Below, piece by piece: positions 6,531-59,915 of a DNA stretch of 64,000 bases. The first letter of the stretch is position 1. Each line of letters starts with the position of its first letter. The notes below the pieces were generated by a model. The model did no database searches and was not told the origin of the DNA. It worked only from the letters and a program-made list of their open reading frames with translations. The DNA is from a virus. The position numbers and the translations under genes are program-made. Where the stretch lies: IMG/VR virus record IMGVR_UViG_3300032456_000002, positions 1 through 64,000 of that record; one strand, given 5' to 3'.

Positions 6531-6894
6531 ATGCCGTCTAGAAATAGGCGGCTTTTTAGTGCCCATTCCCAAGTGTCAATACGACAGCAGCATAACTATT
6601 GACACATTCAAAACTATACACAGTCAGTCTTTCACCATCTGTCGGAAGTGTCAGTAACCTCTAGAGTGTTAACTCTATTCTGGGGAATCCATTGAAGTCT
6701 ATTTTGGGGAGTCCACTGAAGCTTAATTTGGAGCTAGACAGCTAAATTCTTAGCCACTAGTCAAAAACCTATCGACAGGACTGACAGTATTGACACATCA
6801 CGCCCCATAAAGGTTCTAGCTGTCAATAGTTACCGTGCTGTCGTATTGACACTTGGGGAAAAGCACAAAAAAGCCGCCTATTTCTAGACGGCAT
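6531..6894. repeat. 364 bp imperfect palindromic element with 74 bp inverted ends
   Basis: The arms 6531-6604 and 6821-6894 are reverse complements at 66 of 74 positions by my count. Each outer end contains GCCGTC and GGCGGC followed by T5-T6, so each works as a terminator for the gene entering from its side (GIY-YIG from the left, portal from the right). Inside each arm is the smaller dyad TGTCAATAC-N13-TATTGACA. About 90 bp on each side (6569-6660 and 6767-6855) resembles segments of the primase-helicase gene (45471-45560 and 47068-47157) in the same order and orientation. No gene is present. It may be a miniature element, an origin or a decayed duplication. Confidence 0.75.
6674..6721. repeat. 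24 bp tandem repeat inside the palindrome loop
   Basis: Two adjacent 24 bp units, 6674-6697 and 6698-6721, begin TCTATT and share TGGGG, TCCA and TGAAG, with four differences. A degenerate third copy may follow (CTTAATTTGGAG). They occupy the centre of the 364 bp element. Confidence 0.7.
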
Positions 6895-6915: not shown

Positions 6916-8550
6916 TCATACCGACTTCATCGCCTCATCTATTTCTTCTTCCCCGACACTGGCGATCGCATCCCATTCTTCATTACTCAATTCCTCATCC
7001 AATCCCTCATCCAACCCCACATCTAATTCCTCATCCCCTCTCACTGGCTCTAGCAGCTTTGGGTCTTGCCCTGCTACCTGTGGCGGTTCTAGTGGTTCTA
7101 GCTGTGCCTGGATTAGTTCTGGGGGATTATCTACCAGTTCATTCATGCGATCGCTAATCCTGTCATCTAGGCTCAGGTTGTAATTAGCTTCGTCTCCAGC
7201 GAATGCTTGCCTCACTTCCACCGGGTCAAGGATTTTATTTGCAATGAGAATACTGACACTCTCAGCAAAAGTCTTCAGATTGGCTAGTTTATCGGTCTCA
7301 GAGCGCTTCAAGCCGCTGGGTATCTCTACGCCTAAGCCTTTAGGTAATCTGCCTCCTGTGGGGCTATCTTGGGCAAGGCAGGCTAGTTTACCAAGATAGA
7401 GATAATGGTCAGCCCAGTGGCGAGACTTCCAGGCAATCTTTTGATCGTCCCACTGCCGCTCCTCTACTCCTTCCTTGCCTTGGTTGCCTAAGCCCTTTTG
7501 ATTGGATGTACCGAACAGGACATGACGGGGAATATCGGTGTAAAAGCAGATTGAATCAGTGAGGCGATCGATCGCATCCCCTACCCCACCAAAGTTTCGG
7601 CTGACTGTCGACATGGATTCCTTTTCAGAATCTCGAATGAAGATCCGCAGCGCTGACAGAGCAAACATGACGCTTTGCATCCGTTTGGCGATCGCTTCTT
7701 CGTCCTCGCTGTCTCTGATGTCAGAAAAGCCATCTAGCCCATAGTCAAACACTGATGCCGTCTGAATGTAATAGTTGAGGGCATCAAGGCTCTGTGAGGC
7801 TCTAGAGAGTGCCCTGAACACGCCATCAATGATGCTGTAATCTTCCTCTGTCTCTAAGGAATGCAGATATCTTGGCTTGGCTTTGCCAGAGAACTTGATA
7901 ATCCTAGAACGATGGATAGTGCCATCAAACGGCATCTCCCTGGTATCAGAGCGGGCACGGGATAGTCTGTAGGCTCCGCGCTTATCTGGGTAGAGGTCAG
8001 TGTGATAGAGCGGTTCTAAATATTCGATGCTGCGAATGTTTTTAGAATCAATCGGTTCCCTGAAATCTCTGCCATCGTCTGCCCCAATGAGAATATAGGC
8101 TGTCCTAAAAACGTTCGCATTCTTGCTCTGCTCTCGAAAGAGCGATCGCACTGACGACAGAGATAGCTCTGGGTCAAGGTCTGAAGGCTCCACGCAGTTA
8201 TCTAGATAGTCCTCTAGTTGGGAGCCGTCTACCCCGTAGCCACGATAGGAAGTTTGGCGGGTGAATGTGTATTTCATCCAAGTGTCAGAGCATTCCACTG
8301 GATAAGCATCTACTATTTTCTGAACTATTCCATCTTGGTACAGGTCTGCTAGTTCGCGATCGGTAAGCCGTGCAGGGCGATTCACCACTACATGGGTAGT
8401 CGGATCGCGCCCAGTGCCAAAGCCCATGGAGGGATTAGCAAAAGCACTAGCGCTAGGATTCCCCGCACTCATGGCGATCCGCATTCCCGCGCCGTCGTCT
8501 TGCCTGCTGTCTGGTGTTCTGTCTGGTGTGGTGTTTGTAGGTTCAGTCAT
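6916..8550 (-). CDS. Phage portal protein (DUF1073/Acb1-like N-terminal family)
   Basis: 544 residues. The N-terminal part (RPARLTDRELADLYQDGIVQ, IVDAYPVECSDTWMKYTF) and the later DIPRHVLFGTSNQKGLGNQG stretch (about residues 340-360) match the DUF1073 portal family, whose Pfam name now refers to Acb1-like N-terminal regions. The portal forms the dodecameric DNA gate at a capsid vertex and docks the terminase. The C-terminal 80 residues are very acidic (EELDVGLDEGLDEELSNEEW), common in portals. The gene is downstream of the terminase genes on the same strand, with an orphan omega RNA element between them, and ends at the right arm of the 364 bp palindrome. Confidence 0.8.
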   Translation of the reverse strand: MTEPTNTTPDRTPDSRQDDGAGMRIAMSAGNPSASAFANPSMGFGTGRDPTTHVVVNRPARLTDRELADLYQDGIVQKIVDAYPVECSDTWMKYTFTRQTSYRGYGVDGSQLEDYLDNCVEPSDLDPELSLSSVRSLFREQSKNANVFRTAYILIGADDGRDFREPIDSKNIRSIEYLEPLYHTDLYPDKRGAYRLSRARSDTREMPFDGTIHRSRIIKFSGKAKPRYLHSLETEEDYSIIDGVFRALSRASQSLDALNYYIQTASVFDYGLDGFSDIRDSEDEEAIAKRMQSVMFALSALRIFIRDSEKESMSTVSRNFGGVGDAIDRLTDSICFYTDIPRHVLFGTSNQKGLGNQGKEGVEERQWDDQKIAWKSRHWADHYLYLGKLACLAQDSPTGGRLPKGLGVEIPSGLKRSETDKLANLKTFAESVSILIANKILDPVEVRQAFAGDEANYNLSLDDRISDRMNELVDNPPELIQAQLEPLEPPQVAGQDPKLLEPVRGDEELDVGLDEGLDEELSNEEWDAIASVGEEEIDEAMKSV

Positions 8551-14307: not shown

Positions 14308-15132
14308 CTATTCCCCGATCAGCTTTTGGCGATCGCCAAATCGTTGCGCGAACTTTTGTTTTAGCGTTGCCATCGCAGAACGATCAATCTTTGCTGTCTC
14401 CAGAGCAGTAAACTCTTTTTGCCAATGTCCAGACTCTTTTCCATAGCCAATAGATTCTAGCCAGTCCCACGCAGACTTCGTTGTTTTGAACCCGAATTGT
14501 TTCTGCAAAGCTGTAATACCAAAACCGTCTAGCTGAGAAACTACTCGACCATTGCGATCGATGATGACGGTTCGATCAACGTGCTCCACTTTTTCGATCA
14601 CTGTTATCCCTGGCAGCATAATTGCTTCTACTACAGCAGGTGCGGTGATTGACATCATCCCTGCAATAGATAGTGTTTTTTGGGTGGACTCCTGAACTTT
14701 TAGCTGCAACTCCATATTTTTGTTTTGCAACTCTAGTTTGCGGATTTCTTCCGACATTGCGGGAATAACGGTTTCAGCTTCTCTGGTTTTGACTGCGAAG
14801 TAGTGCTTGGCTTGCTTTACCATCGGCTTGCCTCGGCTGTCGCAAGCCAAAACCGTGTGATAGCAAGCCAAACGAGTCAAGCGATAATCAACAGCAGGTC
14901 TGCCATTACTTTTTATCTCTACGGGTAAGAAGTGACTGGAAGTGCTGGGAATAGAGACTTCTAGGTTCTCTTGTGCAATGTCAATGACATCCTTGAACTT
15001 TTGCCATTTCACATAAGTCAGCAATTCCATCAAATCTCTAGCGCTCCAAAATTCCACCCCGGTTCCATCAATCTGTCTGATTGAATCAAATGGGCTTGCT
15101 TGGGCTGTGGATTCAAAAGGTACAATACTCAT
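14308..15132 (-). CDS. BRO/DinD-like antirepressor
   Basis: 274 residues from the ATG at 15132. Residues about 15-115 resemble the BRO-N/DinD region: FDSIRQIDGTGVEFWSARDL, then LLTYVKWQKFKDVIDIAQ, and RLTRLACYHTVLACDS with KHYFAVKTREAE. In phages such proteins act as antirepressors or DNA-binding regulators. Residues 120-150 are a coiled coil and the C-terminal domain ends GDRQKLIGE. That same C-terminal end occurs as an orphan fragment at 56415-56524. The gene forms a single-gene cassette with its own leader (15133-15233) and terminator (14263-14295). Its first codons, MSIVPF, and the leader are nearly identical to those of the 59163 gene. Confidence 0.75.
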   Translation of the reverse strand: MSIVPFESTAQASPFDSIRQIDGTGVEFWSARDLMELLTYVKWQKFKDVIDIAQENLEVSIPSTSSHFLPVEIKSNGRPAVDYRLTRLACYHTVLACDSRGKPMVKQAKHYFAVKTREAETVIPAMSEEIRKLELQNKNMELQLKVQESTQKTLSIAGMMSITAPAVVEAIMLPGITVIEKVEHVDRTVIIDRNGRVVSQLDGFGITALQKQFGFKTTKSAWDWLESIGYGKESGHWQKEFTALETAKIDRSAMATLKQKFAQRFGDRQKLIGE

Positions 15133-15233
15133 AGCCGATTCCTAGAATAGTAGGTCTGTGGTCAGCGATCGCCAAACCTCTGATAAAGGATGCGATCGCG
15201 CTCCCATAATTCTACCGCACGTTCTCGCCAAAA
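15133..15233 (-). promoter_or_regulatory. Cassette leader (-10, hairpin, TGACCACA tract)
   Basis: Reading the minus strand: TTTTGGCGAG (15233-15224), -10 TAGAAT (15214-15209), hairpin arms GCGATCGC (15199-15192 and 15172-15165), then TGACCACAGACCTA (15164-15151), CTAGGAAT and the ATG. The layout is shared with seven other leaders in the window. Likely transcription starts near the GGG before the hairpin. Confidence 0.7.
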
Positions 15234-35743: not shown

Positions 35744-35836
35744 GAGTCTAAGTCCTGTTTAGGTTTGTGGTCAGCGATCGCTCTTCCTGGAAGAATTGTG
35801 ATCGCGCCCCTAAATATTATCACGCTCTCACTAAAG
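35744..35836 (-). promoter_or_regulatory. Cassette leader of the 34937 gene
   Basis: Minus strand: CTTTAGTGAG (35836-35827), -10 TAATAT (35819-35814), hairpin arms GCGATCAC (35805-35798) and GCGATCGC (35781-35774) with an inner TCTTCC/GGAAGA stem, then TGACCACAAACCTA (35773-35760) and the start codon. The motif side faces the divergent gene at 35857, which may share it. Confidence 0.7.
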
Positions 35837-44797: not shown

Positions 44798-44920
44798 ATG
44801 AAAAGGATAGAAGAATCAAGGCAAAAAAATAAAGACCCCGTGCCCGCAAAGCAGAAGTCTTTATCTGTCCAGAGTTCCAGCAACGAAACTACAAGGGAAA
44901 CAAATTATGTCTCAGTATAA
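44798..44920 (+). CDS. Possible leader peptide, 40 residues
   Basis: ATG at 44798 behind GGAAG; basic peptide (MKRIEESRQKNKDPVPAKQ) whose stop overlaps the ATG of the primase-helicase gene at 44907. The overlap would couple translation. A hairpin, AAAGAC/GTCTTT, lies inside. It could be a real small gene or an untranslated leader. Confidence 0.35.
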   Translation: MKRIEESRQKNKDPVPAKQKSLSVQSSSNETTRETNYVSV

Positions 44921-47390
44921 CGGAAACGGTACGGGTTCGTCTAGTCTCACAGAGAATAAGTTCCCTCCATTCTCGGAGTTGATTGAGGAATACTGCGATC
45001 GCAACCCCAAGGAGCGGACTAAGTTTATCTGCCCAGAGTGCGGCGGCGGCAACCTGTCAGTGAATATGAAGACGGGTAAGTGGGATTGCATGAGTGAGCA
45101 GTCTGCGGATCATCGTCAAGCGATTTGTAATGCTCTCAATGGACTATATAAGGCTGAACATCCCGAATTGTCCAATGGAAGCAACGGGCGGAATGGCGGC
45201 GGCAAGCCTAAGACTGCAAGACAAGAGTTTGCGGCTAAGGCTAAGGCGGCTGACTTTGATGCAGAGATGGGGCGGTCTGCGGTTGAAATGAAGGTGGAAG
45301 AGTTGTCGCATCAGTTTGACCCATCAACCAAGCGCGGCACATTGGCAGCCCTAACGGTTGAGATTGCAGCATGGGCTAAGGCTGGTGGGCATGATGTCTT
45401 TGCCACCAAGATGATGCTGAAAGAGGCGATCGAGAGGGTTGTTGGCGATGGGGTTTTGGCTATCAAAAAGCCAAGTGTCAATACGACAGGACAGGAAGTA
45501 TTGACACATTCAAACGATGACATGGTAAGCGTTTCGGCATCTGTCGAAAGTGTCAGTAGGATCTTAAGTGATAAGCTTGCTGCTTTTATGGAACAGCATG
45601 AACTAGAACTGCTCCAATCTAGATCGGAGATGACAAAGGGCGGCTTTTGGTCGCTAGTGTCAGAGCTTCGAGGTAAAGACGAAGTAGAAGATGAAATTGA
45701 GATAGAAAACCTGGTCAAGTTTGCAGAGTGGAAAGCTGCCGTTTTTGACCTTAAGGATGTTTTACCTGGCGGGTTGGCTCGGTCGATGATTAGCGATGCA
45801 AAGTCGTTAGGCATTGAGCCAATGATGCTCTGGCAGTATTTGTTTGTAGCAGTGTTGTCGCTACTCCCCAAAGATGCAGGCTTGATGATGCACAGCCATC
45901 TCACCCCAGCGATCGCTTACACCGCAATCATTGCTGAGACGGGAGCAGGTAAGACACGGGCAGAGAATTTAATAATGAAACCATTAGTCAAGCTGCAAAT
46001 TGAAGCGTCTGCACTGCGAAAGTCTCAGGTGGATCAATACAACCGGGATGTTAAGGCAGCAACGAAAAATCAAGAGGATGCCGAAGAGATCCCCAAGCCT
46101 CCATCGGAAGAGAAGTATGTCCTTACAGTGGCAACCATTCAGGCTGTATGGAGCAAGCTGTCAGAACAAACAGAGCACGGCACGGTGTGGACTAGAGACG
46201 AGCTTGCTGGATTGTTTAAATCCTTTGGTCAGTTCTCCAAAGGTGGTGACAACGAATCACTAGAGTTAATCCTTCAGAGTTGGGATGGAGCCACTCAGTT
46301 TATTGATCGTATGGATGAGGCTAGATCCTTTGTTCTGGAGAATCCAAGGCTGTTGATCGCTGGAGGATTACAGCCTGCGGTCTATCGCCAAATCTTCAAA
46401 GACCCTGAGGACTCGCAAGGGTTAGCCGCTCGGTTCTGCATGTTCCACGGCAAACCCACACCAGTCAAAGACATTGGGCGCAAAACTCAACTAAGCGAAT
46501 CCCTACCATCTATCTATCAGGCGATCCAAGATCTAAAACTGGGAATTGTCGAACCAACAGAAGAAACCTATAAGCTTTGGAACGACGAGAGATATACCGC
46601 AGAGATGGAAGCAAAGGATCATCCTATTGCCTCTGTTAAGGCTTGGCTACGCAAGTTCTCTGGGCACGTTAGCCGCATCGCCCTAGCTCTTCATGCGATC
46701 GAGTGTATTTACGACACAAAAAAAGATAAGGCAGTTCTGACAGAAGAGACGATGACCAAGGCGTTAAAGTTTGCCCACTTCTATCGCCAACAGTTTGAAA
46801 TCATTCAAGCTCAATCGGTAGAGCCATCTAATCTCAGTGGTTACCTTATCAAGATTTGGGACATGGCAAACAATAAAAACAACGGAGTCACATGCCGAGA
46901 TGTCCTAAGAAACTTTCCAGCCTTAAACAAAACCGCCAAAGATGCAAAGCGTAAGTCATCAGACATAGTACTAGATTTATTTGCTCAACTCAGCGAACGA
47001 GGGAAAGGACGGGTAGAAGAAACTGGGAAAACTCGTAAATTCTTCTCTTCCTTCGGCATTACCCCAGAACCTATCGACAGGTTCGACACTTCCGACACTT
47101 CTACCCCAGTAACGGTTCTAGCTGTCAATACTTCCTGTCCTGTCGTATTGACACTTGATAAAACAGAGCAAAATGACACCCCCATCAAAGTAGGTGACAC
47201 AGTAGAAATCCTTGACGGCTCCCTTAAAGGTCAACAACCAACTGTCACTGCCATCAAAGAAGTAGACGGAGAGACTACCTATATCCTCTCAGGACGTCAC
47301 ACAAGCAAGATTAAGGGGTCTATCAACTTTGACAATCACGAACTCCCTGCCAGCCGAATTAGGCTTCTCTCATCCAACGGCAAATCCTGA
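44907..47390 (+). CDS. Primase-helicase (zinc primase domain plus DUF3987-like ATPase)
   Basis: 827 residues. Residues 25-75 hold a zinc ribbon (KFICPECGGGNLSVNMKTGK, MSEQSADHRQA) like the primase zinc-binding domain. Residues 300-600 fit DUF3987-type ATPases: Walker A AETGAGKTRAEN, later TVWTRDELAGLFKSFG (Walker B like, DE) and LLIAGGLQPAVYRQI. The C-terminus (KVGDTVEILDGSLKGQQPTV) resembles a KOW/SH3 nucleic-acid-binding segment. Two blocks, PSVNTTGQEVLTHSN (about 189-203) and VLAVNTSCPVVLTLDK (about 738-753), are encoded by the two arms of a perfect 34 bp inverted repeat and look inserted. Replicative role expected; first gene of the early plus-strand operon. Confidence 0.75.
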   Translation: MSQYNGNGTGSSSLTENKFPPFSELIEEYCDRNPKERTKFICPECGGGNLSVNMKTGKWDCMSEQSADHRQAICNALNGLYKAEHPELSNGSNGRNGGGKPKTARQEFAAKAKAADFDAEMGRSAVEMKVEELSHQFDPSTKRGTLAALTVEIAAWAKAGGHDVFATKMMLKEAIERVVGDGVLAIKKPSVNTTGQEVLTHSNDDMVSVSASVESVSRILSDKLAAFMEQHELELLQSRSEMTKGGFWSLVSELRGKDEVEDEIEIENLVKFAEWKAAVFDLKDVLPGGLARSMISDAKSLGIEPMMLWQYLFVAVLSLLPKDAGLMMHSHLTPAIAYTAIIAETGAGKTRAENLIMKPLVKLQIEASALRKSQVDQYNRDVKAATKNQEDAEEIPKPPSEEKYVLTVATIQAVWSKLSEQTEHGTVWTRDELAGLFKSFGQFSKGGDNESLELILQSWDGATQFIDRMDEARSFVLENPRLLIAGGLQPAVYRQIFKDPEDSQGLAARFCMFHGKPTPVKDIGRKTQLSESLPSIYQAIQDLKLGIVEPTEETYKLWNDERYTAEMEAKDHPIASVKAWLRKFSGHVSRIALALHAIECIYDTKKDKAVLTEETMTKALKFAHFYRQQFEIIQAQSVEPSNLSGYLIKIWDMANNKNNGVTCRDVLRNFPALNKTAKDAKRKSSDIVLDLFAQLSERGKGRVEETGKTRKFFSSFGITPEPIDRFDTSDTSTPVTVLAVNTSCPVVLTLDKTEQNDTPIKVGDTVEILDGSLKGQQPTVTAIKEVDGETTYILSGRHTSKIKGSINFDNHELPASRIRLLSSNGKS
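45473..45506 (+). repeat. 34 bp inverted repeat, left arm (in coding sequence)
   Basis: Begins AAGTGTCAATACGACAGG and is the exact reverse complement of 47123-47156. The arm is itself a dyad (TGTCAATAC-N13-GTATTGACA). It encodes the block SVNTTGQEVLT in the primase-helicase. The same dyad occurs in both arms of the 6531-6894 palindrome with a different 13 bp centre. Confidence 0.9.
47123..47156 (-). repeat. 34 bp inverted repeat, right arm (in coding sequence)
   Basis: Exact inverse of 45473-45506, 1,616 bp away, encoding AVNTSCPVVLTL in the plus frame. The reverse strand here reads the SVNTTGQEVLT peptide again. Confidence 0.9.
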
Positions 47391-48766: not shown

Positions 48767-49680
48767 TGATCACTGCAACTAAGAAGCTCAGTCCTCTATT
48801 GCGTTGGGCTGGCGGGAAGTACAACCAGCCAAAGATAATCAAGCGGCTTCTCGAACTTTATGAGCCGTACCGAGACAGTCATGTTTGGGTCGAACCGTTC
48901 TGCGGTGCTTTAGGGGCAACATTTCGAGTGATGCCATACCGCGCCATCCTCTCCGATAGCAACAAATGGTTGATTCGATTCTATGAAACGATTAAAGATG
49001 GGAACAACCTCAACCCTGAGTATTTTGATAAAGACTATTACGATCTTCGGAAAATCCTTCGGGGTGAAATGGCGCGGGATGGATATGGCGACTGCCTTTC
49101 TCGACCTGACTTCGCGTCTGTTTTCTACGCTGTCAATCGCAAGGGCTTCAATGGCGTGTGGCGTGTGAATGCCAGCGGAGAGTACAACGTTCCTGCGGGG
49201 AAGGATTCTCAAGGTCGCCTCTTAACTTGCAAGATGCCTTCTGATTACGATCAATATTTTGCCGCGATGGATAAGTGGAGCTTTGACGCACAGCCCTGGC
49301 AGATGCAGCTAACACTGAAGTCGAACTTGATGGGATTCAACCGATCGCCCAAGTTCATCTATATCGATCCACCCTATGACAATGGCTTCGTAGGCTATCA
49401 AGCTGGCGGCTTCACTTGGGACGATCAAAAGGAATTGGCAGAGTGGGCGGCGTTGTCTCCTCATCCCGTTGTGATGTCGAATCTAGCAACGCCTAGAATT
49501 ATGGAACTCTACTCTAGCCTTGGCTTCGACGTCGAAGAAGTGTCAGCCCGTCGCTCGGTCAGTCGCAATGGGGATCGGGAGAAGGTTGTTGAAATTTTGG
49601 CAACAAAAAACGTTATGACTGCCGCTAAGTTTGTTGAACGTGAATTGGGCGGCATGGTTATGGAGGTGCGATCGCGATGA
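48763..49680 (+). CDS. dam: DNA adenine methyltransferase (Dam, D12 class)
   Basis: 305 residues. PLLRWAGGKYNQPKII carries the AdoMet-binding FxGxG-like region, VEPFCGALGATFRV follows, and KFIYIDPPYDNGFVGYQ (about residues 198-214) has the catalytic DPPY. NRKGFNGVWRVNASGEYNVP is the typical conserved block of the D12/Dam family, which methylates adenine in GATC. HIP1 (GCGATCGC) contains GATC, so the enzyme should modify these frequent sites. It may protect phage DNA from host restriction or match the host Dam-like methylation. Located in the replication operon. Confidence 0.85.
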   Translation: MMITATKKLSPLLRWAGGKYNQPKIIKRLLELYEPYRDSHVWVEPFCGALGATFRVMPYRAILSDSNKWLIRFYETIKDGNNLNPEYFDKDYYDLRKILRGEMARDGYGDCLSRPDFASVFYAVNRKGFNGVWRVNASGEYNVPAGKDSQGRLLTCKMPSDYDQYFAAMDKWSFDAQPWQMQLTLKSNLMGFNRSPKFIYIDPPYDNGFVGYQAGGFTWDDQKELAEWAALSPHPVVMSNLATPRIMELYSSLGFDVEEVSARRSVSRNGDREKVVEILATKNVMTAAKFVERELGGMVMEVRSR

Positions 49681-51584
49681 GCCAGCTTACTTTATTGACC
49701 ACACCACAAGCGATCGCCATTCCCACACATCCAAGGGCAAAAGATTCTGCCGATTTTCTACCCAAGTCAGCAGGCAGGAAGCAAGAGCTATTCTCGTTTC
49801 AATCCAAAATGGTGCGAGAAACATACGACCTGATTCGTGCTAATGAGAAGCGCATCCTGTGGGTAGCAGCGCCATCTGCGGGAAAGACGCGAATCTCTGG
49901 ACAAGTGATGATTGACGCTACCCAGCGGGCTAAGAAGCCGATGCGGTGTGCGTTTGTAGTGGAGATGGATGTATTGGGGCAGCAGACCTTAGAGACTTAC
50001 GAAAAGTTAGGGTTAAACGCCACTCTTTATAAGGCTGACAAAAAGTTTGATATGTCTGCCCAAGTGGTAGTGATTAGCTCCCAAACCCTAGAGCAGAGGG
50101 TAAAGAAGGGGCAAAGCGTCACTGAACTATTGGGCAACTTTGGGCTGATATTGGGCGATGAGATTCATACTCTTTCTCAGCGGGTAGGCTGGCGGCTGCT
50201 GAATGAAGCTTATGCTCCATCCTCCACAATATTCATTGGGATGACGGGCACCCCTTGGAATGAGGGCGATCGCTCTTTATTCCATTGGTTCGACAAGGCT
50301 GTATGTGCTCCACAACCCCCAGAGTTAGTAAAGCTAGGACGGCTTGTGATTGTGCGAGGATTTAGCCCTGATGATATTTTTGCCGCCACTGACTTGAAGT
50401 GGAGTGCCAAGGATGGCGATTTTGATTTGACGGCTCAAGAGGATGCTGCAATAAGCGATCAGAAATTACAGTTGGTAGTTGAGAAATATTTAGAGCGGGG
50501 CGAAGGAAGGACAGCGATCGCTTATTGCTCTGGGATTCTTCATGCCAAAATGCTAACCCGCACATTCCTAGCAGCAGGGGTAGCAGCAGAATATCAGACT
50601 GGTGACACCCCTGCTGGATGGACAAAAAACAAAGATGGGCGAAACGACCAACACGACCGAATGGAGTCAGGCGAAACTAAAGTACTGTGCAGTATTGGCA
50701 CTTGCACTAAAGGCTATGATGCCCCATTTGTGAGTTGCATAATTCTGGCTAGGGCAGTGGGCAATAAGAATTTGTATCATCAGATGTCGTGCCGTGGCAA
50801 CCGCGCCCATGCTTACCCTGATGGCAATATCAAAGGGGACTGTCTGCTGATAGATTTGGGTGGAAACTGCGATCGCTTTGGGCATCTACCCACTGACTAT
50901 CAGGATTACTCTGCCGCATTGATGCCGCCAAAGCGCAAACAGGAAAAGACCGACGACTATTACAAGACTTGCCCAGAGTGTGGGATGGAAAAGATTCTAT
51001 CGTTTGCTAAGCTCTGCCCTGGTTGTGGCTATGAATTTGGCAAGGGCAAAGACGATGAAGACACTCTATTCAATTTGGCAGACTTCCAACTCAAGGAATA
51101 TTTCACTCCACTGGGCAGTCAGCAAGTCCAATTTGTTCGGAGTCATAAGGCTCGGTACTTTGCCGAGAATATTAATCCTGATAATGTGGCGAAAGAGTTT
51201 GCCGCCGAGTTTGGTTTTCAACCGCCATTGGACTGGCATCTCTGGGCAGTGTTTGGACGCAGATCTAGTAAGGAGCAAAAGGCTAGATATCATACCTACC
51301 TTCAAGGATTCGCCCCGCATGATTACTGGCTTGATAGACACATGCGGCTAGAGTTTGGGGGTGAGGCTAAGAAGATTCCTGAGTTCCTGGCTAAGTGGCG
51401 AGATAAATGGTGGGACATTTTGGGGATAGATAAGACTGCAACAATGGAGCAGGTCAAGTTGGCATACTTGGCTGGGGCAAAGCATTGGCACCCTGATGTT
51501 TGCAGTGACTTAAAGCATGGGACAGAGCAAATGCAGATGTTGAACGTGGCGTATGAGGAAGCTAAAAAGCTGCTTTGTGTTTAG
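49677..51584 (+). CDS. SF2 helicase fused to zinc finger and J domain
   Basis: 635 residues, coupled to dam by 4 bp. Residues 60-400 are an SF2 DEAD/H-type core: Walker A APSAGKTRI, later LGDEIHTLSQRV (DEIH box), MTGTPWNEGDRS (motif III-like), and CTKGYDAP with QMSCRGNRAHAYPDG (motifs V and VI). Residues 435-460 hold a four-Cys zinc ribbon (TCPECGMEKILSF, KLCPGCGYEF). The last 65 residues form a J domain: WWDILGIDKTATMEQVKLAY, KHWHPDV with the HPD triad, and EQMQMLNVAYEEAKKLL. A J domain would recruit a host DnaK chaperone. The combination in a phage helicase is unusual. Role in replication or recombination inferred from the operon. Confidence 0.82.
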   Translation: MSQLTLLTTPQAIAIPTHPRAKDSADFLPKSAGRKQELFSFQSKMVRETYDLIRANEKRILWVAAPSAGKTRISGQVMIDATQRAKKPMRCAFVVEMDVLGQQTLETYEKLGLNATLYKADKKFDMSAQVVVISSQTLEQRVKKGQSVTELLGNFGLILGDEIHTLSQRVGWRLLNEAYAPSSTIFIGMTGTPWNEGDRSLFHWFDKAVCAPQPPELVKLGRLVIVRGFSPDDIFAATDLKWSAKDGDFDLTAQEDAAISDQKLQLVVEKYLERGEGRTAIAYCSGILHAKMLTRTFLAAGVAAEYQTGDTPAGWTKNKDGRNDQHDRMESGETKVLCSIGTCTKGYDAPFVSCIILARAVGNKNLYHQMSCRGNRAHAYPDGNIKGDCLLIDLGGNCDRFGHLPTDYQDYSAALMPPKRKQEKTDDYYKTCPECGMEKILSFAKLCPGCGYEFGKGKDDEDTLFNLADFQLKEYFTPLGSQQVQFVRSHKARYFAENINPDNVAKEFAAEFGFQPPLDWHLWAVFGRRSSKEQKARYHTYLQGFAPHDYWLDRHMRLEFGGEAKKIPEFLAKWRDKWWDILGIDKTATMEQVKLAYLAGAKHWHPDVCSDLKHGTEQMQMLNVAYEEAKKLLCV

Positions 51585-51605: not shown

Positions 51606-51700
51606 CTTTAGCTTGAACGATGATAAGATTTAGGAGCGCGATCGCAGTTCTTGGGAGAGAAGAGCGATCGCTGACCACAGTACTTTAGAGAACAAAGCAA
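51606..51700 (+). promoter_or_regulatory. Cassette leader of the 51701 gene
   Basis: CTTTAG (51606-51611) upstream, -10 TAAGAT (51624-51629), hairpin arms GCGATCGC (51638-51645 and 51664-51671), then TGACCACAGTACTT and the GTG start. Same layout as seven other cassettes. Confidence 0.65.
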
Positions 51701-54996: not shown

Positions 54997-56316
54997 TCAA
55001 GGTTCTGCCAAAATGCGATCGCCATCCGCAGCTTTTTGTTTGAGCAATGCCCTCAATCTACCAGTCCTCAACCTTGTTACTTTTTTGTTGAATCTGGCAA
55101 CCCTTTCGGCTCCATTGGGTGCATAAACAGCAGGCTCAACATCAATAGGTATCGGTTCTGGCTTGGGGATGGGCTTAGTTTTGGCGGGTTGCAGTTCAAT
55201 TTCTCCATAGGTGCGAACGATGAATGTAGATAACTTGTGAGCGTGTTGGTCTGCACCTTTCGCAATTTTCCATTCAACACGTTTGATTTGTTTTCGTAAC
55301 TCTAGTTCATTCTTTGACTGCGGAATGTGCAACCCTAATTTATTGGAACGATTCTGTCTAACGCTTTGCTTCTCCGCTAGTTTTAGTTGCAGTTTCTCCA
55401 ATTGCTTCGAGAGCTTCAAATTTTCAAAGGGCTTCACCTCTTTACCTTTGTCATCCCGATAAAGCAGATTCTCAACCCTTGGAAACTCTAAAGAACATTT
55501 ACGATCGCTTGGTTTGAGTTCAACTTTAGGCAATTCCCCGGTTAGCTGAAGTTGCCAAAAACCAGGAAGGTTACAAACTTTCAAAACGCAGATCTCTACG
55601 TCTGTCCAAACTTTTGCCGACTCAGGCATGACAATCAGTCCCAGACCAGGAACCCTGATTTGTCCATCTTTGACTTTAATACTTTTAGCGTCGTTACTGA
55701 CTAGCGTAGACAGTCCGTTACGAATGCCCTTAAATCTGGGTTCTCCCATTCGCCCCGACTTATGTTCCTTCCATGCGATCGCCAATGATGCCAGCGTTCC
55801 CCGGACGAAAACACTGGGTACTTTCTGTAGTTCCGCCCACTCTGGGTTCGCCTTTTGGGAGAACATCGCAGACAGGCTAAACGCTGAAGGTCTATCTAAG
55901 CGCGGCTCAACGTATGGCAGCGGCAACGGACAGCAAGGGCGATAAGGGCGGCGGTAACTATCGAATGATGTGCATGGAGTATATGGAACGGGCACCCATT
56001 TAATTTTTGCGGCTGGCTCCACTGGCTCAAGAGGTTTATCAGTTTTCTTCTTCGCCTTTTTGCTTTTCGTTGCGCCGTTGGCAGGAATGAAACGATACTT
56101 CCAAGGAGCAATCACTATACCATCCTTATCAACCCCTCCAAAAATCGGCATTGATGGATATCTAGTTTTGTCGTACTTGTTCCAAGTGGAATAGCGATCG
56201 CACTCTAGAATAAGTTCTAGAGCCTGATTCCAAACTCTACGCAGCGCCTCAAACCATTGTTCTGTAAGTGCTAACTGAGCAGGATCTAATTTGATTGTGT
56301 AAGTTATAGTTTTCAT
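54997..56316 (-). CDS. RuvC-degenerate Cas12/TnpB-like effector
   Basis: 439 residues from the ATG at 56316. The N-terminal half is TnpB/OrfB-like: TITYTIKLDPAQLALTEQWF then EALRRVWNQALELILE, and later PSVFVRGTLASLAIAWKEHK with SGRMGEPRFKG. In TnpB the RuvC-I box is GIDxG; here the matching place reads CSLEFPRVENLLY, with Glu for Asp and no Gly. The RuvC-II region is degraded (YGEIELQPAK) and the chain stops after LRALLKQKAADGDRILAEP, before the zinc finger and the third Asp. So DNA cleavage is unlikely, while guide-RNA and DNA binding may remain, as in TldR or Cas12k. The next element is a tracrRNA candidate and CRISPR array. Its leader is that of the antirepressor cassettes, so it is regulated with them. 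Confidence 0.78.
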   Translation of the reverse strand: MKTITYTIKLDPAQLALTEQWFEALRRVWNQALELILECDRYSTWNKYDKTRYPSMPIFGGVDKDGIVIAPWKYRFIPANGATKSKKAKKKTDKPLEPVEPAAKIKWVPVPYTPCTSFDSYRRPYRPCCPLPLPYVEPRLDRPSAFSLSAMFSQKANPEWAELQKVPSVFVRGTLASLAIAWKEHKSGRMGEPRFKGIRNGLSTLVSNDAKSIKVKDGQIRVPGLGLIVMPESAKVWTDVEICVLKVCNLPGFWQLQLTGELPKVELKPSDRKCSLEFPRVENLLYRDDKGKEVKPFENLKLSKQLEKLQLKLAEKQSVRQNRSNKLGLHIPQSKNELELRKQIKRVEWKIAKGADQHAHKLSTFIVRTYGEIELQPAKTKPIPKPEPIPIDVEPAVYAPNGAERVARFNKKVTRLRTGRLRALLKQKAADGDRILAEP

Positions 56317-56384
56317 ATCCATCGCCTAGTAATAATAGGTTAGTGGTTAGCATAGCTGAGTAGATTGAAGTCTATCAGCTATGC
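56317..56384 (-). promoter_or_regulatory. Cassette leader of the CRISPR effector
   Basis: Minus strand: long hairpin with arms GCATAGCTGA (56384-56375) and TCAGCTATGC (56359-56350) plus inner pairs, then TAACCACTAACCTA (56349-56336), CTAGG and the ATG 8 nt later. The arm sequence differs from the other leaders but pairs perfectly. The -10 is not obvious. Confidence 0.65.
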
Positions 56385-59065: not shown

Positions 59066-59162
59066 TTTTAGCGAGGGAGTGGTAAGATTTAAGGGCGCGA
59101 TCGCCATTCCTTAGAAGAAGAGCGATCGCTGACCACAGACCTATTATTGCTAGGAATTGGCT
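59066..59162 (+). promoter_or_regulatory. Cassette leader of the 59163 gene
   Basis: TTTTAGCGAG (59066-59075), -10 TAAGAT (59083-59088), hairpin GCGATCGC (59097-59104 and 59122-59129), TGACCACAGACCTA (59130-59143), then CTAGGAATTGGCT and the ATG. The reversed motif faces the divergent 58358 gene and may drive it as well. Confidence 0.75.
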
Positions 59163-59915
59163 ATGAGTATTGTACCTTTTGATTTCAATGGTTTTGAGCT
59201 TCGGACTTTAGGAACATGGGATGCACCGCTTTTTGTGGCTGCGGATGTTTGTAAGATTCTGGAGATTAAGAATGTTTCGATGGCTTGTGAGTGCTTGGAT
59301 GAAGATGAAAAGGGCATCTATAGCGTCAAGACTCATGGAGGGGGGCAAGACGCGCTCTGTGTTACAGAGCCTGGGCTGTACCGCCTTGTATTTAAATCTC
59401 GCAAGCCGATAGCAAAGGTTTTCCAAAAATGGGTGTTCTCCAAATTGCTGCCATCTATTAGAACCCAATCTCTTTCGGGTGATTGGGTCATCAAAAAGCT
59501 CAACGAGATACAAGAGTCGCAGTCTGAATTAATAGAGATTGCATCAGCCTCAATGGAGTCAGTGTACAGAGACCGTTTAGCCGATCTACTAGCCGGAGCT
59601 ACTGAGGTGCAATCGTATATCAGCGCTTTTGCCACGCTAGAAGAGAGTGATGTTGCTGTTGCTGTCTTCGCTGACGTCGTGACGGACGTTGCAGTGATTG
59701 AAGTGAAATCGTTTGCCTTGTGGAAACAAGCACTAGGACAAGCCCTGGTTTACAAGAAATGCATCAAGTTTTCGGAGAAAGAACCGGGGGTATATTTATT
59801 TAACTGCCCCAAAGACAATCGGTTGCGAGACGTGTTTTCTATTTTTGATGAGTATGAAATCGAGTTTTGCTATTACACGTTCACTGGAGAATCTGAAATC
59901 AGAAGGATGCTATAA
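59163..59915 (+). CDS. BRO-N antirepressor-like protein with nuclease-like tail domain
   Basis: 250 residues from the ATG at 59163 (a TTG at 59157 is less likely). Residues 1-105 are a BRO-N domain: FELRTLGTWDAPLFVAADVC, LDEDEKGIYSVKTHGGGQD, then VTEPGLYRLVFKSRKPIAKV and FQKWVFSKLLPSIR. Residues 165-245 (DVVTDVAVIEVKSFALWKQA, LGQALVYKKCI) repeat the D-x-n-EVK and GQ-x-L-x-Y pattern of the 56525 protein, so both carry the same PD-(D/E)XK-like domain. Leader and first codons are almost identical to the 14308 gene. Confidence 0.75.
   Translation: MSIVPFDFNGFELRTLGTWDAPLFVAADVCKILEIKNVSMACECLDEDEKGIYSVKTHGGGQDALCVTEPGLYRLVFKSRKPIAKVFQKWVFSKLLPSIRTQSLSGDWVIKKLNEIQESQSELIEIASASMESVYRDRLADLLAGATEVQSYISAFATLEESDVAVAVFADVVTDVAVIEVKSFALWKQALGQALVYKKCIKFSEKEPGVYLFNCPKDNRLRDVFSIFDEYEIEFCYYTFTGESEIRRML

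Follow-up and report, generated by a model that had tools for sequence, protein, structure and literature searches.

Bacillus phage SPP1 has one replication origin within its initiator gene, gene 38, and a second between structural genes (oriL and oriR, gp38), with the same kind of repeats at both and transcription signals bracketing them (PMC6316719). The ori iterons of lambda, which contain internal dyads, lie midway along gene O, which encodes the initiator (PMC6022878). SaPI Rep and SCCmec Cch2 are initiator helicases that bind, through the C-terminal domain, iterons located immediately past the 3' end of the gene (PMC7581432). P4 alpha and ORF904 of pRN1 are primase-helicases with a C-terminal winged helix; P4 alpha binds its origin repeats by this domain, and the pRN1 origin is found just 3' of its gene (PMC4234260). 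For cyanobacterial plasmids, the Rep proteins CyRepA and CyRepX were found by AR-seq; they are of the DUF3854/DEXDc type, and iterons are unmentioned in either account (PMC10079941, PMC10899382). The DUF3987 family has been predicted to act as a helicase in mobile-element replication (PMC5862659). Our literature search returned no replication, binding or footprint data on any DUF3987 protein and, in the open literature, nothing on DUF3987 iterons, an absence that is weak evidence as subscription papers were outside its scope.

We analyzed the first 64,000 nucleotides (the window) of the 69,725-bp virus record IMGVR_UViG_3300032456_000002, which encodes portal, terminase, capsid and tail genes and belongs to a cyanobacterial siphophage. 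Its DUF3987 gene resembles the in-gene origins of lambda and SPP1 in that putative initiator-type sites repeat inside the coding sequence of the putative initiator and fall in interdomain linkers predicted to be disordered. As in SPP1, a second set of the same repeats lies between structural genes and is bracketed by transcription signals, but SPP1 uses arrays of direct repeats together with an AT-rich region and its initiator is not a helicase, whereas the phage gene has a mirrored array on either side of the helicase domain. Lambda differs in having a single array of four iterons and an unrelated O protein that recruits DnaB through P and is not itself the helicase. The SaPI Rep and Cch2 origins are downstream of the coding sequence, without split arms, and the proteins belong to a different helicase family; the sites of P4 alpha and pRN1 are likewise not within the gene, and pRN1 has a stem-loop without iterons and an SF3 helicase. 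As described, none of lambda O, SPP1, SaPI Rep, pRN1 and P4 alpha has mirrored arrays flanking a helicase domain, and we found no earlier report of a split, mirror-symmetric origin around such a domain in coding DNA.

Mirrored half-site arrays within the DUF3987 gene

The gene (44907-47390, + strand) encodes an 827-residue protein that scores 113.9 bits against Pfam PF13148 (E = 1.3e-32), well above the curated cutoff of 27, placing it in DUF3987. An N-terminal Zn-ribbon-like region is followed by the helicase core, a winged helix and a C-terminal beta domain. The AF2 model, of moderate confidence (mean pLDDT 64), has an alpha-beta AAA+ ATPase core, a winged helix at residues 643-714 and a small C-terminal beta domain, and its best PDB matches in Foldseek are MCM/CMG helicase chains, although with low TM-scores; the protein is a predicted MCM-like AAA+ helicase. 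The conserved helicase and winged-helix core (45555-47069, + strand) shares 34-41% identity with its counterparts in plasmid and genome homologues. Plasmid homologues match the phage protein mainly at residues ~219-712, and homology begins and stops near the two arms described below. Protein scans of viral contigs yielded no other relative, and an exact 16-mer scan of the same kind of contigs matched only two unrelated phages (L010 and L011), by chance.

The first-pass annotation had reported a perfect 34-bp inverted repeat inside this gene. The repeat is real and perfect but one base pair longer, with arms of 35 bp at 45472-45506 and 47123-47157 separated by 1616 bp. When the whole window was shuffled 30 times with dinucleotides preserved, the longest exact inverted repeat measured 14-20 bp. 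Each arm consists of the dyad TGTCAATAC-13 bp-GTATTGACA, which occurs only these two times against an expectation of 0. The upstream outer palindrome, with TGTCAATAC at 45476 (forward) and GTATTGACA at 45498 (reverse), corresponds to residues ~189-200, within a linker predicted to be disordered; its exact reverse complement at 47123-47157 encodes residues of the disordered linker 717-776. In the AF2 model the arm-encoded stretches fall in low-confidence linkers (176-203 and 717-776; pLDDT below 50). A hairpin of -7 to -14 kcal/mol is predicted for each arm.

The two arms form the outer portions of larger arrays of TGTC half-sites that are mirror images of each other. Nearer the core, and absent from the first-pass annotation, are tandem half-sites: a pair of TGTC words at 45542 and 45551, 9 bp apart (45542-45559, + strand), at a position where nearly all homologues also have a tandem pair, and, mirroring it on the 3' side, three GACA words at 47076, 47085 and 47094, again 9 bp apart (47071-47097, - strand). 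On both sides, the tandem half-sites point toward the conserved core in 9-bp steps.

A compact copy between structural genes

Non-coding DNA at 6570-6856 repeats both gene arms in order, but ~110 bp separate them where the gene has its core. Ungapped alignment of 45471-45574 with 6569-6672 gave 79 identities in 104 positions, and that of 47068-47157 with 6766-6855 gave 72 in 90, which bears out the earlier observation that some 90 bp around each arm align in order with an intergenic element; the start assigned to that element, 6531, corresponds to a terminator hairpin, and the sites themselves occupy 6570-6856. The left arm (6570-6657) has TGTCAATAC at 6574 (forward), GACA at 6601 (reverse) and tandem TGTC words at 6640 and 6649. 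The spacer (6658-6769) replaces the ~1.5-kb helicase core, and the right arm (6770-6856) has tandem GACA words at 6774, 6783 and 6792, followed by TGTCAATAG at 6821 (forward) and GTATTGACA at 6843 (reverse). Read in the frame of the gene, the intergenic copy contains a stop codon. A record-wide search showed that the 9-mer TGTCAATAC/GTATTGACA occurs seven times in the 69.7-kb record, always within the gene arms or the intergenic element.

The element is bordered on the left by the intrinsic terminator of a + strand GIY-YIG-like ORF (6533-6552, + strand) and on the right by that of the portal gene (6916-8550, - strand; terminator at 6873-6892, - strand). These terminators are near-identical to each other, and the flanking genes are convergent. 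No promoter-like site was found within the element, nor any DNA match to it in phage or plasmid collections. The identity of the two 35-bp gene arms extends to their non-site center, and the centers of the intergenic arms are similar to one another, which suggests that arm-to-arm conversion may have occurred recently within each element. A comparison of site and non-site conservation between gene and intergenic arms is not relied on here because its significance depends on which copy defines the sites (p = 6e-4 with intergenic-defined sites, p = 0.17 with gene-defined sites). By eye, the spacer also contains, at 6658-6735, two imperfect direct copies of TCTATTYTGGGGARTCCAYTGAAG that are missing from the gene copy.

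Half-site arrays in other DUF3987 genes

We compared 34 distinct complete genes, including that of the window, drawn from cyanobacterial plasmids and genomes (core 34-41% identical); 28 further loci from a bacterial genome scan were added to the plasmid homologues, and a cut locus (L037) and a duplicate (L048) were left out. Mirrored half-site arrays are present in the same two core-flanking linkers in all 33 complete homologous genes, although in L044 the reading frame ends before the last 3' sites. At positions corresponding to the phage arms there are palindromes of CTGTCACCGGTGACA in Gloeothece, ATTGTCTACGTAGACAAT in Tolypothrix and CTATTGTCAGTACTGACAATAG in Nostoc. The 5' sites are near-fixed relative to the core (-90, -84, -67, -55, -12, -3 or -78, -72, -54, -12, -3), with a forward tandem pair at -12 and -3 in nearly all homologues; the 3' arrays mirror them at a variable distance from the core. 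The same split mirrored layout is seen in the more distant L074, whose half-site is GTCCCC. In homologues, the mirrored stretches common to both arms span 12-20 bp. The DUF3987 core carries varying N-terminal domains (Prim-Pol with or without PriCT_2, a DnaB N-terminal domain or a Zn-ribbon-like region; L012-L018, L024-L051), and the junction between the variable domain and the core falls close to the 5' arm.

Because the homologues have linkers with sites of their own at these positions, the arms are not insertions, and the first-pass impression that the encoded blocks look like inserts does not hold; among the 33 homologues there was no empty homologous site. The proposed analogy to palindromic elements tolerated in coding DNA, such as Rickettsia RPE, is not supported for the same reason: dispersed copies in many unrelated genes and homologues lacking the insert would be expected of such elements, yet the record has just this gene and one intergenic copy, and every homologue (33/33) has sites in the same place. 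What would have spoken against a DNA-level element, namely the same peptides encoded by unrelated DNA with no second copy elsewhere, is the opposite of what we observed, since the DNA architecture is kept and the peptides differ.

The half-site itself varies by lineage (GTCACC, GTCAGT, GTCTAC, GTCAAC or GTCAAT), both arms of one gene being alike. On the core tree it changed at least four times, six by parsimony, always in both arms together, the switches coinciding with blocks of the DUF3987 gene tree. We counted 38.9 half-sites per kb in the 5' arms, 9.9 in the 3' arms and 0.44 in the core and N-terminal part; since the arms were also the source of the word, this ratio is descriptive. In the 5' arms most forward sites are in frame 0, whereas in the 3' arms frame 2 is more frequent, so the same DNA encodes different peptides. 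When 7-mers common to the 5' arm and the reverse-complemented 3' arm were compared with synonymous-codon resampling, 28 of 35 genes exceeded the null (p < 0.05), and 16 of these reached the lowest attainable value, p = 0.002. The differing frames, the excess over the synonymous null in most genes and the near absence of the word from the rest of the gene show that the arms are under selection at the DNA level. In eight complete plasmids, among them the 7.6-kb Oscillatoria plasmid described below, the densest half-site cluster falls in the DUF3987 gene.

In distant DUF3987 genes (about 25% identity) the gene's 3' end carries both arms together in a compact arrangement of 9-bp direct iterons, spacer and inverted array, the arrangement also seen in the phage's intergenic element. 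Such genes resemble SaPI Rep in having arrays at the 3' end. Planktothrix p2 has seven and then six copies of a GTCTACA word within 300 bp, and similar 3'-end arrays occur in Crinalium, Calothrix, Scytonema and Oscillatoria, including a 7.6-kb Oscillatoria plasmid in which the DUF3987 gene is accompanied by no other recognizable replication gene. In a repeat-word scan, 24 of 27 distant genes, several of them mutually near relatives, reached five copies and 21 reached seven. Some controls were contaminated, either because CGATCGC, the HIP1 word of cyanobacteria, was counted or because they were DUF3987 genes themselves; with those cases removed, about 3 of 25 reached five copies and one reached seven. 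AT content per 30 bp showed no marked peak in the distant 3' arrays.

Outside this set, Salinibacter and Rhodovastum plasmids appear, by eye, to have mirrored repeats where the DUF3987 gene ends. In Salinibacter pSR11 (L107, 11500-11534 and 1-200), mirrored TTGCACTT-type repeats flanking an AT-rich center lie just 3' of the DUF3987 stop codon, and in RHOAph, a linear alphaproteobacterial plasmid record (L108, 2400-3000) that also encodes a capsid fusion gene, TGTCGACA palindromes surround the 3' end of the DUF3987 gene.

A proposed split in-gene origin and its alternatives

Taken together, the half-site arrays, their family-wide architecture and their lineage-specific sequence support the suggestion, among those in the first-pass annotation, of origin iterons inside the gene. 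We consider it likely that the arms are the initiator-binding arrays of an origin embedded in the initiator gene, with a compact second copy elsewhere in the genome. The 9-bp-spaced iterons and palindromic pairs would be the initiator-binding sites, and the origin would be split into mirror-image halves in two disordered linkers. With the core separating its halves by ~1.5 kb, such an origin would require looping or two independent loadings. Most likely the DUF3987 protein would load two helicase rings in opposite orientation, one per arm, to give bidirectional replication, and the mirrored layout makes two-ring loading testable. The copy at 6.57-6.86 kb may serve as a compact second origin, insulated by terminators between structural genes. 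GC skew of the whole record gave no origin position (minimum at 40.0 kb, maximum at 60.0 kb, p = 0.08).

The DUF3987 protein most likely binds the half-sites itself, through its C-terminal winged helix. Columns 671 and 674 of this domain perfectly separate genes whose half-site ends in C from those ending in T, but the correlation is not significant under clade permutation (10/165, about 6%), and for this reason we leave winged-helix binding as an inference; the site in question cannot be aligned in distant relatives.

Centromere-like partition sites (parS/parC-like) or incompatibility sites, bound by a partition or copy-control protein for segregation or handcuffing, typically have inverted iteron arrays too, and ParA/ParB or ParM is encoded on many of the plasmids. 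The arrays nevertheless track the DUF3987 gene and not the partition type (ParAB, ParM or, in the 7.6-kb plasmid, none annotated), their half-site switches go with blocks of the DUF3987 gene tree, and they also occur in a phage, all of which makes this explanation unlikely. Autoregulation, with the arrays as operators or roadblocks repressing transcription of the gene, is frequent among initiators and would fit sites in cis, but the arrays lie 0.5 kb inside the gene and near its end, with none at the promoter, and the genes on either side of the non-coding copy converge on it and end in terminators, with no promoter-like site that we could find there; we regard autoregulation as very unlikely. 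We give a shade less credence again to recombination sites that allow inversion of the core or swapping between different N-terminal domains. Homologues do differ in their N-terminal domain, which joins the core close to the 5' arm, and the perfect 35-bp identity in the phage suggests arm-to-arm conversion. Against this, the half-sites are lineage-specific, the arms of most homologues (12-20 bp mirrored stretches) are too little alike for efficient homologous recombination, flipping would disrupt the helicase domain, and no inverted core was seen in any locus examined. The inversion sites raised as a possibility in the first-pass annotation thus find no support.

If the arms were transposon or MITE terminal inverted repeats and the intergenic copy a deletion derivative, this could account for the mirror symmetry, for several sub-terminal TGTC sites resembling Tn7/Mu-type ends and for the missing middle of the intergenic copy. 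Every homologue, however, has in-frame sites of lineage-specific sequence in the same linkers, with neither an empty homologous site nor a target duplication among them; there is no transposase between the arms and no further copy in the record, and the intergenic element has no DNA match in phage or plasmid collections, so that mobile ends seem highly improbable. Least probable of all is a role in RNA, as mRNA hairpins or long-range pairing: each arm could form a hairpin (-7 to -14 kcal/mol), but many homologous sites are tandem and hairpin-less, the compact copy is outside the gene and 3' of a terminator, and both-strand orientation with direct 9-bp repeats fits DNA binding.

A wider proposal, which we hold with somewhat less confidence but still favor, concerns the whole helicase family. 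DUF3987 genes would each contain an origin, either within the coding sequence or at its end, as mirrored 9-bp iterons, split around the helicase domain in one subfamily; initiator, specificity and origin would then co-evolve as one gene, and by switching its half-site a plasmid or phage could diverge in compatibility from others within the same cell. Were this true, the origins of at least one phage, and of cyanobacterial plasmids that form a large uncharacterized group, could be read from one gene, and compatibility groups would be predictable from a 6-bp half-site. DUF3987 would gain a function as an origin-binding initiator helicase, its genes would offer candidate minimal replicons for cyanobacterial vectors, and the lineages would form a natural series of coupled switches in protein and site specificity.

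Several other features of the window are recorded here. A repeat around TGTGGTCAGCGATCGCTCTTC is found at 35766-35786, 51659-51679 and 59117-59137, possibly as shared promoter or regulatory elements, and a longer inverted pair (15113-15172 and 59122-59182) belongs with it. The phage also carries an IS605 OrfB/TnpB-like gene (54997-56322, - strand) and, at 49677-51584 (+ strand), an unusual fusion of a ResIII/DEAD helicase to a C-terminal DnaJ domain.
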